From NCBI GenBank assembly GCA_026390695.1, contig JAPLFL010000102.1, forward strand, positions 1 to 36,188: 36,188 bases of DNA, given 5' to 3'. This document shows, one piece after another, positions 17,558 through 21,411 of this stretch. Source of the stretch: Candidatus Kapaibacterium sp. GTDB taxonomy: Bacteria > Bacteroidota > Ignavibacteria > Kapaibacteriales > UBA2268. Numbering within the stretch: the first letter of the stretch is position 1; every line of letters begins with the position of its first letter. Both the position numbers and the translations under genes were made by a program. The notes below the pieces were generated by a model that saw only the letters and a list, made by a program, of their open reading frames with translations, was not told the DNA's origin and did no database searches.

Positions 17558-17939
17558 TGCAATTTCTAAAAATTTTATCTGTTCTTAATCCAAAAAAGAC
17601 ATTTCTTGCTGTCTCCTAATAAATATACTCACAAGCCACTGCTGTAGCGGCATTTCCGATTCCGATTATCAGAAAATAGAAAAATTTTCCCTTTTAATAA
17701 GAAAGTTCCTCTTTTATACTTCCTTAATCGAATTCTCAATATATGACTTTTTTTTGAATAAAAATTAATCTCAATTCATTTTTACTTTTCAAAAAAGCAA
17801 AATTCATTTGTTGATAGCTCATTTTTTATATAATTTTTTAAGGTCTATTGTAAAGAATTGTTCCTATTTAATAAATATTTTTTGTTATATTGCTTATTGC
17901 TTCATGGGGGGAGCGGAAATAGAAGGCAGAAGTTAAAAA

Positions 17940-18041
17940 GTGAAGGTAGGAAGAAGAATCAGCAAATATTTTCGTTTTGGAGCATATTCTGAAATTGTCT
18001 CAATTACTGAGTTTAACTCAGGCCCCCTGTTATTTACTTAA
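17940..18041 (+). CDS. Possible 33-residue peptide (GTG start), doubtful
   Basis: The ORF runs from GTG at 17940 to TAA at 18041 and would encode MKVGRRISKYFRFGAYSEIV followed by SITEFNSGPLLFT. It is noted because it lies just before a locus with an asparagine-synthetase-like gene, a family that also works on peptides. No good Shine-Dalgarno sequence is present, the ORF contains the palindrome at 18007, and length alone could arise by chance. I give it low weight. Confidence 0.15.
   Translation: MKVGRRISKYFRFGAYSEIVSITEFNSGPLLFT
18007..18021. promoter_or_regulatory. Perfect 15-bp palindrome, possible operator of the UmuD-like operon
   Basis: CTGAGTTTAACTCAG has two perfect 7-bp arms around one central base. 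It lies 60 bp before the ATG of the first UmuD-like gene, a plausible operator position. An SOS-type repressor site is an inference; no consensus for this group is known to me. Confidence 0.4.
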
Positions 18042-18081
18042 TTTGAACTGACAGATTTTTTTAATTTTTTTGGGGCAATTT

Positions 18082-18507
18082 ATGGAAAAAATTGAATTAC
18101 TAAACTTTGAACCTACAAGTTCTGCTAAAATTCCCTTTTTTCAGGGTTCAGTTTCGGCTGGAGTTCCTGTCTCAGTCGATAATCCACAACAAGAGCGAAT
18201 TGATTTGAACGAATTTTTAGTGGATAATCCGACTAAAACTTTTTTTGCTAAGATTCATGGTTATGAGATGTCACCTTACGGAATACGTGACGGAGATATT
18301 GCTATTGTTGACTCTTCGCTTCAGTTGCGGGATGGTAATCTTGTAATTACTCAGGTTGGCGAAGATTTATTGCTGAAAATATTTCGTGATGTCAATGGTG
18401 AAAAATTCTTAGAATCGCATAATAAGACATTTTTGCCATTATCAATTGAACCCTTTATGAATTTTCAACCATTAGGGATTGTTACTAAAGTTATTCGCCC
18501 TGTCTGA
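18082..18507 (+). CDS. UmuD/LexA-type S24 protein lacking the catalytic serine
   Basis: The 141-residue protein aligns by eye over its whole length with UmuD: IPFFQGSVSAGVPVS, ERIDLNEFLVDNPTKTFF, then GIRDGDIAIVDSS. The Ala-Gly bond used for self-cleavage in LexA-type proteins is present at 26-27. The catalytic lysine is probably K99 in GEDLLLKIF. The nucleophile motif, normally GDSM, reads GYEM, with Glu at 62 in place of Ser. It is therefore probably a pseudo-protease that could still be cleaved by a partner or act as a dimerisation subunit. It has no DNA-binding domain. The start is the ATG at 18082 with GGGG 6 nt before it; a TTG 12 nt earlier is an alternative. The next gene begins 9 nt after its stop. 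Confidence 0.8.
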   Translation: MEKIELLNFEPTSSAKIPFFQGSVSAGVPVSVDNPQQERIDLNEFLVDNPTKTFFAKIHGYEMSPYGIRDGDIAIVDSSLQLRDGNLVITQVGEDLLLKIFRDVNGEKFLESHNKTFLPLSIEPFMNFQPLGIVTKVIRPV

Positions 18508-18516
18508 GACACTATT

Positions 18517-18942
18517 ATGAAAGTCACTGAATATTCCGAGATTGGTACTCGGTTTGAATTTAAAGCTGAATTGTTTCAAGCTGCTTCTAAGGCAGGACTT
18601 TTGAATATTAACATGGAAGAGTCCGGTTCACTGGACTTAAATATTTTACTTGCACCTAATCCTGAGAAATTCTTTTTAGTCCGTGTTAATGGCGAGAGTA
18701 TGATTGATGAAGGAATTTTTGATGGCGATATTCTTGTTGTTGAAAGATCTGAAGTACCGATTGATGGCGAAATTATCATTTCAGCTTTAAATGGTGAACT
18801 GACAGTTAAAACGTTCAGACTCATTGATGGTACCGGCTATCTTTATTCTGCAAATAAAAAATTTTTACCGATAGAAATAATGACATTCTATGATTTCAGT
18901 GTGCAGGGAATCGTAAGGCATATTATTCACTATTTTATTTGA
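18517..18942 (+). CDS. UmuD-type S24 self-cleaving protease homologue with Ser-Lys pair
   Basis: The 141-residue protein is the second of the tandem pair and the same length as the first. The nucleophile is S61 in VNGESMIDEGIFDGDILVV, and the general-base lysine is K98 in LNGELTVKTF. A possible cleavage bond, Ala-Gly, is at 26-27 in ASKAGLLN, the same position as in its neighbour. In E. coli, UmuD is cleaved under RecA stimulation and then works with the polymerase UmuC. No umuC lies here; an asparagine-synthetase-like gene follows after 53 bp. The pair probably arose by duplication and diverged strongly. An active protein that cleaves or pairs with the serine-less one is plausible but unproven. 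Confidence 0.8.
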   Translation: MKVTEYSEIGTRFEFKAELFQAASKAGLLNINMEESGSLDLNILLAPNPEKFFLVRVNGESMIDEGIFDGDILVVERSEVPIDGEIIISALNGELTVKTFRLIDGTGYLYSANKKFLPIEIMTFYDFSVQGIVRHIIHYFI

Positions 18943-18995
18943 GAAAGCCCTTTGAGGTAGATGAGGACAGTTTATTATATTTTTAGAAAAGCCTT

Positions 18996-20732
18996 TTGAG
19001 TTGGTATTTCGGATTATATGGAAATTTAAATCAAAATGATAGGGATTATTTTGATAATGTAGGCTCAGAAGCGCTTTTTCAAGTTAGAAATGAAAAATTA
19101 TTACTTTGTTCGGGTGGCTTAAAAGAAAATTTGAATTATCATTTTGAGAATGATGATAATACAGATTCAGGCTGGCTAATCGTTGGATTTGGGTTATTAG
19201 AACGTGAGAATGATTTTATTTTTGCAAACAACGATTATTGGTCTGCTATTCTGACTGAGAACGATTTTTATGATGAAAAACTAAACGGACATTTTTGTGG
19301 TGTTCGATGGTCAGAAAAAGAGATTTTTCTCTTTAGTGATAACTTAGGGATCAGAGATTTTTATTATACCGAGCTGAATGGCATAATCGCATTTTCATCT
19401 CGTCCGCATATTTTATCAAATTATCGAAAAGATTGTTTGGTTAAATGGCCGGTGATAGGCTCCAGATGGCTACTTAGGAATCAAATTGACAGGAAAAGTC
19501 CTTATTCGAATCTCAGCCGTGTAAGTTCATCAGGAAGAGTGATAATTAATGAGAATGGTATAATTACTAATGAGAGGCTCTGGCAACCGAAAAGTATATC
19601 CCCAAGTTCTGTAGATGCAGATATTCCACTTAAAAAATTCTTTTTATCCGAGTGTTTTCAGAATAAGAAAATTAGGTTAGCTCTATCCGGCGGTATGGAT
19701 TCGAGGTTTTTACTTTCAATTATTAATTCAAATCATAAAAATTATGAAGTTTTTACCTTGGGTGATCCTAATCATCCTGATTCGATAATAGCCTCAAAAA
19801 TAGCATCAGCTCTGAATTTGAAGCATTGTCAATATGAAGTAAAAGAGTTGAATGAAACTGAAATAATTAAACATACCTTGGATTTTATTTCATATACAGG
19901 TGCGACGGCTCCTGCATCCGAATCTATGCAGAAACTTTATTTTGAGAATCTGTATGAGCCTGATTCAATCGTAATAGATGGTGGATTCGGAGAAATCGGA
20001 AGACGTAGTTTATTTAATAAACTTCTAAGTTTCGGAAAAAAATATCTGATGGCACAAGATTCGCAAAGAATACTGGATTTGCTTATTTACCAAGACAGAG
20101 CCTATTATTCCAAAGATGTTTATAAAATGATTCTTGAATATAGCAAGGACAGCCTTGAAGTATTATTTAGTGAAATGCCAGATCCTAATTATTTTGGTGC
20201 TGAAAATTGGATGGATCTGTATTCTGTCAGAACAAAACTCATCAATTATACTTCCTTAGAGCAAGCCAGAGTGGATAATTATGTGCAGAATTTAACACCT
20301 TTTTCTGAGAAATTTTATTTTGATTATTCTTTTACGATTCCTTTGAAGGAAAAAATAAATTCTAAAATGTATAAAATGCTGATAAAATCAGATAATCCGT
20401 TAATTTCAAAATTTCCGATTGTAAAAGGAGATACTTATGTCCCGTTTTCCGCTCCTGATCTATATAACAAACTTTACAGCAAGGTTAAAAACAAAATCGT
20501 TAAACCTTATATTGATGATTTTAAGATAATGTTTTTTAAATCAATGAAAAATTATTTCAATGATTTATTGAACTCGCAATCTGTCCGTCAATCCGGAATT
20601 TACGATATAAATTATTTACAACAAAAATTCAATTCTTCCTTTAAAGAAACGGTAGTTCCCAATCCCGAACTTGATTTCTGGCTTGCAACCGAATTATTGC
20701 GCCAAAAGACCGAAAATATTTTGAAGGTTTAA
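18996..20732 (+). CDS. Asparagine-synthetase-like protein without glutaminase cysteine
   Basis: The 578-residue protein has the two-domain layout of class B asparagine synthetases. The N-terminal Ntn/GATase II-like half (1-~195) includes LFSDNLGIRDFYYTELNG and IAFSSRPHIL. The catalytic residue expected right after the initiator Met is Ser instead of Cys (MSWYFGLYGN), so glutamine hydrolysis is unlikely. The C-terminal ATP pyrophosphatase half has the P-loop SGGMDSR at 231-237, and IDGGFGE in place of the usual G.G.DE segment. The start is TTG at 18996; no later Met preserves the domain. Relatives with a lost or altered GATase site activate carboxyl groups in lasso-peptide, beta-lactam and surface-polymer pathways. 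The acceptor here is unknown. Confidence 0.78.
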   Translation: MSWYFGLYGNLNQNDRDYFDNVGSEALFQVRNEKLLLCSGGLKENLNYHFENDDNTDSGWLIVGFGLLERENDFIFANNDYWSAILTENDFYDEKLNGHFCGVRWSEKEIFLFSDNLGIRDFYYTELNGIIAFSSRPHILSNYRKDCLVKWPVIGSRWLLRNQIDRKSPYSNLSRVSSSGRVIINENGIITNERLWQPKSISPSSVDADIPLKKFFLSECFQNKKIRLALSGGMDSRFLLSIINSNHKNYEVFTLGDPNHPDSIIASKIASALNLKHCQYEVKELNETEIIKHTLDFISYTGATAPASESMQKLYFENLYEPDSIVIDGGFGEIGRRSLFNKLLSFGKKYLMAQDSQRILDLLIYQDRAYYSKDVYKMILEYSKDSLEVLFSEMPDPNYFGAENWMDLYSVRTKLINYTSLEQARVDNYVQNLTPFSEKFYFDYSFTIPLKEKINSKMYKMLIKSDNPLISKFPIVKGDTYVPFSAPDLYNKLYSKVKNKIVKPYIDDFKIMFFKSMKNYFNDLLNSQSVRQSGIYDINYLQQKFNSSFKETVVPNPELDFWLATELLRQKTENILKV

Positions 20733-20796
20733 TATTTTAAAAATAAATTTGCTTAAAATTCGTTTACTCTTTATTATATTGATTCAAAGGTGAAAA

Positions 20797-21411
20797 ATGG
20801 TAGATAACGAAAATTTTAATCCGAACATGACCTTGCTCAGTGGCTCTTGTGGCTATAGTATAGATTTAGTCTGTAATCAGAACGACAGTATTTATTGCTA
20901 TAAACTTCATCTGGTTAATGTAACAAGTGATTATATAGTTGTTGCTCCATCGGAAACTTCATCTGCATTCAAAAAGATACCTTTCTTCGATAAAGGCAAG
21001 CAGTTGATCCTTAATATTTACAGAGCTGATGCGGATATATTGAATGGCAGGAAAGCCGTGTTGTTCGACTATAAACTTATGAAAACTTATGATAAAGTTA
21101 TTGGGAAAATAAAGCCGTATTTAAACACAATAGTTTATATTGTGAGCACATGGAGTCCGAAAGGTTTATCAGATATTAAACTTAGTGTTGAATGGGGGCT
21201 AATGAAATCATTTGGAATGAACGCTCTGGAACTCACCACGAATAAAGTATTAGCTGTAAAAAAAGTTGGTCGTTACCAAATTTACGAAGAACCTGGAGAA
21301 TTAAAGGATAAAAAGGAATATATAGTCCATGCCATCCCTTATAAAAATATTTATCATATATACGCATGGGATGAAGAAACCAAAGATTTGGTAGATATAT
21401 CTAAAATTTAA
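20797..21411 (+). CDS. Unrecognised 204-residue protein in the UmuD/AsnB-like locus
   Basis: The protein starts MVDNENFNPNMTLLSGSCGY, with AGGTG about 6 nt before the ATG, a convincing ribosome-binding site. It has no signal peptide, membrane segment or obvious repeat. Two cysteines lie near the start (SGSCGYSIDLVC) and a third in IYCYK. The middle is hydrophobic and beta/alpha mixed (KPYLNTIVYIVSTWSP, LSVEWGLMKSFGM). The C-terminal part is rich in Tyr and charged residues (HAIPYKNIYHIYAWDEETKD). I do not recognise a family. It lies 64 bp after the asparagine-synthetase-like gene on the same strand and is probably cotranscribed, so it may be a partner or substrate of that enzyme. Confidence 0.7.
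   Translation: MVDNENFNPNMTLLSGSCGYSIDLVCNQNDSIYCYKLHLVNVTSDYIVVAPSETSSAFKKIPFFDKGKQLILNIYRADADILNGRKAVLFDYKLMKTYDKVIGKIKPYLNTIVYIVSTWSPKGLSDIKLSVEWGLMKSFGMNALELTTNKVLAVKKVGRYQIYEEPGELKDKKEYIVHAIPYKNIYHIYAWDEETKDLVDISKI

Follow-up and report, generated by a model that had tools for sequence, protein, structure and literature searches.

Complementary loss of cleavage site and catalytic residues in a conserved tandem of UmuD-like proteins: a candidate two-subunit UmuD in Kapaibacteriales

The cleavage of UmuD and LexA has been studied for decades with the help of engineered dead and truncated mutants. According to one study, self-cleavage is determined by an Ala-Gly or Cys-Gly site plus a Ser-Lys dyad (PMC8565304). 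A second study reports that UmuD S60A is cut efficiently in trans by arm-truncated UmuD (UmuD 18) in heterodimers with RecA:single-stranded DNA, and that dead UmuD is still able to dimerise (PMC5342242). In addition, the Förster resonance energy transfer signal of the contact between Pol III alpha and beta is lowered by full-length UmuD and hardly by UmuD’, and elevated umuDC products reportedly inhibit RecA-mediated recombination (PMC5342242). Here, we analysed a 36,188-nucleotide stretch of DNA from Candidatus Kapaibacterium sp. (contig JAPLFL010000102.1), hereafter the window, which is contig C82 of a 4.63 Mb genome in 129 contigs. Two adjacent genes in the window code for the UmuD-like S24 proteins A and B, listed below, and we consider it fairly likely that they constitute a two-subunit UmuD derived from a tandem duplication, in which A is cleavable and mostly protease-dead and B is the protease, with its own cleavage site mostly worn out.

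18082..18507, plus strand: gene 1, S24 protein A (UmuD-like, 141 residues from ATG); SVSAGVP cleavage-site region (Ala26-Gly27), Ser replaced by Glu (HGYEM), Lys present (LLLK); proposed substrate subunit.
18517..18942, plus strand: gene 2, S24 protein B (UmuD-like, 141 residues); Ser (NGESM) and Lys (LTVK) present, KAG at the site position; proposed protease subunit.

Both proteins clearly exceed the Pfam cut-off for Peptidase_S24 (70.2 bits for gene 1 and 74.7 bits for gene 2; cut-off 23.3), which bears out the initial annotation in so far as it recognized two UmuD-like genes here; the loss of the catalytic Ser in gene 1 (HGYEM versus NGESM in gene 2) had been missed. That annotation began the locus at 18007, which precedes the first listed start codon by 63 bp. 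The open reading frame (ORF) of gene 1 is listed as 18070–18507 with a TTG start, and the ATG at 18082 agrees better with the relatives. Like UmuD, A and B consist of an S24 domain of ~140 residues and have no DNA-binding domain, and they remain under the NCBIfam cut-off for UmuD (82.1 and 90.5 of 110 bits). The N-terminal winged helix-turn-helix domain of LexA is absent from the two 141-residue proteins: the matches to TIGR00498 (LexA) begin only at position 69 or 97 of the 203-position model, with scores of 54.1 and 68.6 bits (cut-off 110.95).

The closest described system is E. coli UmuD/UmuD’, the Pol V accessory protein (PDB 1UMU, 1AY9, 8GMT), which is the best PDB sequence match for A and B as well as the best fold match for A. 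An AlphaFold2 model based on 10 rows and covering A alone (mean predicted local distance difference test score (pLDDT) 65.6; blocks of ten residues averaging 65–87 from residue 51 onwards; arm unconfident) found E. coli UmuD’ as its best PDB match (1ay9, E 2.4e-6). Shared features are the size, the S24 domain, the Ser-Lys dyad (B) and an arm with a cleavable X-Gly (A). In contrast to E. coli UmuD, there are two genes, each mostly without one half of the self-cleavage apparatus, the window has no adjacent umuC, and there are seven genomes in which the pair is present and no Y-family polymerase was detected. UmuDAb and the SOS regulators of Bacteroidetes (PMC8565304) are likewise S24 proteins tied to DNA damage, in bacteria that lack a canonical LexA; however, these are single self-cleaving proteins carrying DNA-binding domains, whereas A and B have nothing beyond the S24 domain but a short arm.

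The tandem is conserved within the family to which the window belongs (f1). A-type proteins (>180 bits with the A profile) are present in 37 of the 54 family genomes analysed, and the B profile yields a full-length match at ≤1e-50 in 35 of the 54. Outside this family, one further A was found among 123 genomes of the order, in a member of another family (G044). Gene order is invariant: A precedes B in all 35 fetched loci carrying both on one strand (34 in f1 plus the outgroup G044), and in G077 a further, 36th pair is truncated where the contig ends. Among the best 80 of 567 loci, 13 have two S24 frames and five (L128, L130–L133) are of the A/B kind; four of these five are labelled Kapaibacterium or Ignavibacteria, and L128 is labelled Desulfobulbaceae but may equal contig C35 of G074, a member of the window’s family. 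A phage origin of A was rejected, as a viral collection gave 38 loci with relatives, the best segment being 33% identical; these loci were not inspected for tandem pairs.

Comparison of the key residues in f1 revealed that A and B have lost complementary parts of the apparatus. Ala-Gly is present in 37/37 A proteins as compared to 8/36 B proteins, in which it lies near the site (G000, G019, G024, G034, G065, G066, G074 and G075, including the window’s own B), and it is absent there from the other 28. Conversely, the catalytic Ser is found in 36/36 B proteins and in seven of the 37 A proteins (G015, G019, G020, G025, G035, G076, G077), with only G015 retaining Ser-Met. The Lys of the dyad is present in all 36 B proteins and in 25 of the 37 A proteins, the other 12 having Arg. 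The combination of dyad and cleavage site in one chain, which is a trait of UmuD, is therefore missing from most members of both groups (30/37 A without Ser; 28/36 B without Ala-Gly), the window’s B being an uncertain case owing to its KAG. All three features are present in every canonical UmuD row, namely in all 21 from the family, of which 19 are distinct, and in all nine from other loci. Column entropies give the same picture: in A, the Ala column has an entropy of 0 (rank 2 of 145) and Ser ranks 117 of 145, while B shows no variation at Ser and rank 132 of 141 for the site column; Gly was left out of this comparison, as its column in the table coincided with a gap column.

These counts omit G007, G010 and G011, which have partial S24 frames, the second S24 frame of G061 apart from its pair, and the B fragment of G077; the A proteins of G003, G027 and G077 were added by hand and the truncated B of G030 was counted. 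Profile scores had initially assigned four proteins (G008, G009, G014 and G077:C183) to A or B, and these were manually moved to canonical UmuD; they retain all three counted features, and the tree described below, built without those columns, also groups them with canonical UmuD. As outgroup, nine of the 22 rows of the tree were kept for the residue counts, the features of the other 13 being uncounted.

Estimates of the ratio of nonsynonymous to synonymous substitutions (dN/dS; Nei-Gojobori) range from 0.01 to 0.09 for A in 13 close-relative pairs, which overlap in genomes, and from 0.01 to 0.12 for B in 12 of these 13 pairs, one being saturated. The low dN/dS of A indicates that this gene is under purifying selection and therefore not decaying. 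In a quick tree (116 rows, 101 columns, trait columns excluded; 47/107 inner branches unresolved), A forms one clade (Shimodaira-Hasegawa-like approximate likelihood ratio test (SH-aLRT) 83) and B forms one clade (95) save for one long-branched outsider inside it. Together, A and B are set apart from other UmuDs (SH-aLRT 96), and G044 is basal in both. The A protein of G044 retains Ser, Lys and Ala-Gly, and its B has Thr-Gly at the site. As judged from the tree, a single tandem duplication followed by loss on either side would fit best.

The pair does not share the association of UmuD with umuC. The initial annotation was right that no umuC lies beside the genes: PF00817 is matched once in the window’s genome, by a UmuC-like protein (so named by eye) on a separate contig, C115, and a UmuD with all three features is encoded on C99. 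The UmuC of C115 is matched at ≤1e-100 in 41 of the 54 family genomes; 43 match it at 1e-15, two of them with only weak (~25% identical) rows, probably DinB. Its presence in the window’s own genome and in most of the family would suit the view that A and B make up an ordinary UmuD heterodimer which serves, in trans, the separate UmuC of the genome, the split reflecting drift in a Pol V accessory pair. However, when PF00817 was searched in 15 chosen genomes, six matched and none of the seven pair-bearing genomes lacking a UmuC match did so (completeness in brackets): G016 (99%), G019 (99%), G027 (92%), G034 (92%), G062 (98%), G065 (83%) and G066 (78%). Six of these seven also have no second A-profile match, and so no canonical UmuD, at 1e-34, and G062 has such a match; other S24 proteins are present in some of the seven. 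Other pair-bearing genomes have UmuC elsewhere. Moreover, a separate canonical UmuD adjoins umuC both in genomes without an A >180 bits (G008, G028, G060, G068, G069, G070) and in genomes that have the pair as well (G024, G074, G075). Given these separate distributions, the pair and UmuDC come and go separately, and we regard the ordinary heterodimer as unlikely. As a side observation, the canonical UmuD of the window’s family is located directly upstream of an acetylornithine aminotransferase-like gene, not umuC, in L098, L314, L315, L316 and L324 (by eye).

The reading of A and B as substrate and protease subunits of one UmuD suggests a mechanism. Since the two proteins resemble the S60A plus truncated UmuD pair, we infer that B may catalyse cleavage of A. 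In the laboratory pair (PMC5342242), the arm is likewise provided by one subunit and the active site by the other, and cleavage occurs in trans, as proposed for A/B; that heterodimer was engineered, whereas A/B appears to be a natural arrangement. Accordingly modelled on this precedent, A and B would form a heterodimer. Upon DNA damage, the RecA-single-stranded DNA filament would hold the N-terminal arm of A in the Ser-Lys active site of B, and B would cut A at Ala-Gly (residues 26–27 of the window’s A, counted from ATG). The resulting A’-B dimer would then change partner binding, as in the transition from UmuD to UmuD’. As the pair is kept in seven genomes that have no detectable Y-family polymerase, it probably acts on the replisome (clamp or Pol III) or on RecA, and not on UmuC. 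More tentatively, and with a somewhat less than even chance in our estimate, the pair may represent a self-cleaving DNA-damage switch split into substrate and protease subunits that form an obligate heterodimer, serving as a switch of the replisome or as a checkpoint without the need for a Y-family translesion polymerase in much of a bacterial family. A natural split UmuD pair of this kind was not found among the top-listed titles and beginnings of abstracts of a literature search or in parts of papers, with most subscription journals outside its range. The A/B pair would represent a novel form of UmuD, for which trans cleavage is predicted. If true, it would show in a natural setting how a true protease-substrate relation can emerge from autoproteolysis, and it would open a polymerase-independent role of UmuD to study in genomes apparently without Y-family translesion polymerase.

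Several points weigh against a two-subunit UmuD. The seven Ser-bearing A proteins could be active, and the eight B proteins with Ala-Gly, the window’s included, could self-cut, even if their KAG or TAG lacks the V-x-A-G-x-P surroundings. In G003 and G027, A and B are located on different contigs. Fisher tests of the residue distributions yield p values of 4e-14 (Ser) and 2e-13 (Ala-Gly) but treat genomes as independent, thereby ignoring shared descent; on the tree, the minimum numbers of changes are five for Ser in A, three for Lys in A and three for Ala-Gly in B. The absence of the polymerase was scored in draft assemblies. Of the genomes concerned, four are from one genus; the seven represent three genera in total, and genus-mates of the three genomes outside the largest genus have UmuC. 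Finally, an SOS box upstream of A was considered and rejected: the top 4-mer palindrome occurs in 10/33 upstream regions as compared to maxima of 6–10 in 20 shuffles, i.e. no palindrome is above chance, and SOS control is unsupported by sequence.

The presence of the pair in genomes without a detected Y-family polymerase would also suit a role in regulating RecA or homologous recombination instead of the replisome, and the reported inhibition of RecA-mediated recombination by elevated umuDC products (PMC5342242) points in the same direction. This is a sub-case of the two-subunit UmuD and not exclusive of it, and we hold it to be unlikely. Alternatively, A may be a dominant-negative or decoy UmuD that stays uncleaved and buffers B or canonical UmuD, its conserved Ala-Gly being structural. 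Loss of Ser in 30/37 and replacement of Lys in 12/37 A proteins would be compatible with such a role, as would the capability of dead UmuD to dimerise (PMC5342242). However, to judge from B, the fold can do without Ala-Gly, and yet the Ala is invariant in A, which makes a decoy improbable.

The substrate and protease genes are followed in the window by two further genes on the same strand:

18996..20732, plus strand: gene 3, AsnB-like protein; MSW start, without the glutaminase Cys; SGGMDSR; outside the conserved unit.
20797..21411, plus strand: gene 4, 204-residue protein of no known family; single distant relative (G001); outside the conserved unit.

The initial annotation had joined all four genes, correctly described as plus-strand ORFs with gaps of 9, 53 and 64 bp, into an operon, and had hypothesized a stress-triggered self-cleaving switch away from umuC that controls amidation. 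That the four genes work together as an operon, in which the S24 pair would regulate the AsnB-like enzyme, is very improbable and was rejected, since it is supported by strand and spacing in this one genome and linkage was found in no other fetched locus. The AsnB-like protein matches 26 of 60 searched genomes (own included) at 1e-3, and relatives at ≤1e-12 occur in 13 genomes besides the window’s own. A gene for A or B was present in 0/14 fetched AsnB-like loci from these 13 genomes (tblastn, 1e-4), nor was an AsnB-like gene detected in the 551,610 bases of the 43 S24 loci that were fetched from elsewhere (some contigs only ~3.5 kb). Seven genomes (G006, G012, G013, G018, G024, G030, G033) have both the AsnB-like gene and S24 genes, on different contigs each time. 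The neighbours of the AsnB-like gene vary, including tatC-like plus polyprenyl synthetase-like genes in three genomes and glycosyltransferase-like genes in two (by eye; L087 and L089). The 204-residue protein has matches in 2/60 genomes including its own, the other (G001) being weak (24% identical over 192 aligned positions). Thus, the four genes do not stay together across species, and the operon is unsupported because the AsnB-like gene of the relatives belongs to other loci; the same finding removes the support for a control of amidation. What stands of the proposed switch is the S24 pair, which is conserved on its own, with the roles of substrate and protease largely divided between its two copies, while the AsnB-like and 204-residue genes appear to be neighbours by chance or lineage-specific additions.

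As the initial annotation had noted, the product of gene 3 has SGGMDS and lacks the glutaminase Cys: it starts with MSW and has no Cys2. It matches Asn_synthase of Pfam with 33.5 bits (cut-off 21) and GATase_7 barely (25.1; cut-off 25), and remains far under the NCBIfam cut-offs for AsnB (45.9 of 267.1 bits) and lasso cyclase (15.1 of 525 bits). With AsnB, CarA and lasso peptide cyclases it has in common the SGGxDS PP-loop and a degenerate N-terminal glutaminase domain, CarA being the nearest solved sequence (E 0.01). In contrast to AsnB and lasso cyclases, it belongs to a small family of its own with an MSW start and a DGGFGEI-like motif: among 15 aligned rows, the N-terminal Cys is absent from all 14 that cover the N-terminus, SGGxDS is present in 14/14 covering the PP-loop and MSW starts 9/14. 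The loci of this family (L079–L092) have no Cys2, an SGGxDSR loop and the DGGFGEI-like motif. Lasso peptide cyclases are usually encoded near precursor, B1 (PqqD-like) and B2 genes. Inspection by eye of the ORFs of at least 120 residues in the window showed no lasso B1 or B2 gene, six window genes being Pfam-scanned and small precursors not searched for; together with the low scores, this speaks against a lasso or other cluster for ribosomally synthesized and post-translationally modified peptides. The statement that the last gene is of no recognised family also proved correct, as its product has nothing above cut-off in Pfam (best E 0.53) and no match in NCBIfam, PADLOC or PHROGs; its predicted fold is unusable (mean pLDDT 37). 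Anti-phage defence was rejected as well, as none of the four proteins has a counterpart in PADLOC at E 0.1.

The upstream sequences of A frequently contain a run of G residues, which in the window is located as follows:

17906..17911, plus strand: GGGGGG run followed by an adenine; 176 nt upstream of the gene for A.

A run of at least five G within 220 nt upstream was detected for 21/33 scored A genes as compared to 10/315 other ORFs (at least 150 residues), and within 30 nt of the start codon for 13/33 A genes as compared to 0/331 other ORFs; as the background ORFs were taken to begin at the most upstream start codon, the upstream region is defined less precisely for them than for A. On the opposite strand, the counts are 1/33 and 13/315. 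The table covers 33 of 38 A genes: G018 and G033 failed the start rule, and G003, G027 and G077 are not in it. No G-run was found within 100 nt upstream of umuC or canonical umuD among the scorable regions, several genes being unscorable. The runs often read GGGGGGA and are placed at the ribosome-binding position in some A genes and 39–206 nt upstream in others.

Further S24 proteins came to light in the course of these comparisons. One of 210–219 residues with an N-terminal extension recurs in G000, G019 and G016 (L317:4613-5272, L312:4068-4709, L309:3232-3864). In another family of the order, a UmuD-like domain follows an XRE-like N-terminal part, possibly forming a repressor (L320:3201-4259, L322:4266-4949; by eye), and in L322 imuB- and dnaE2-like genes lie just downstream of the XRE-like/UmuD-like gene (by eye).

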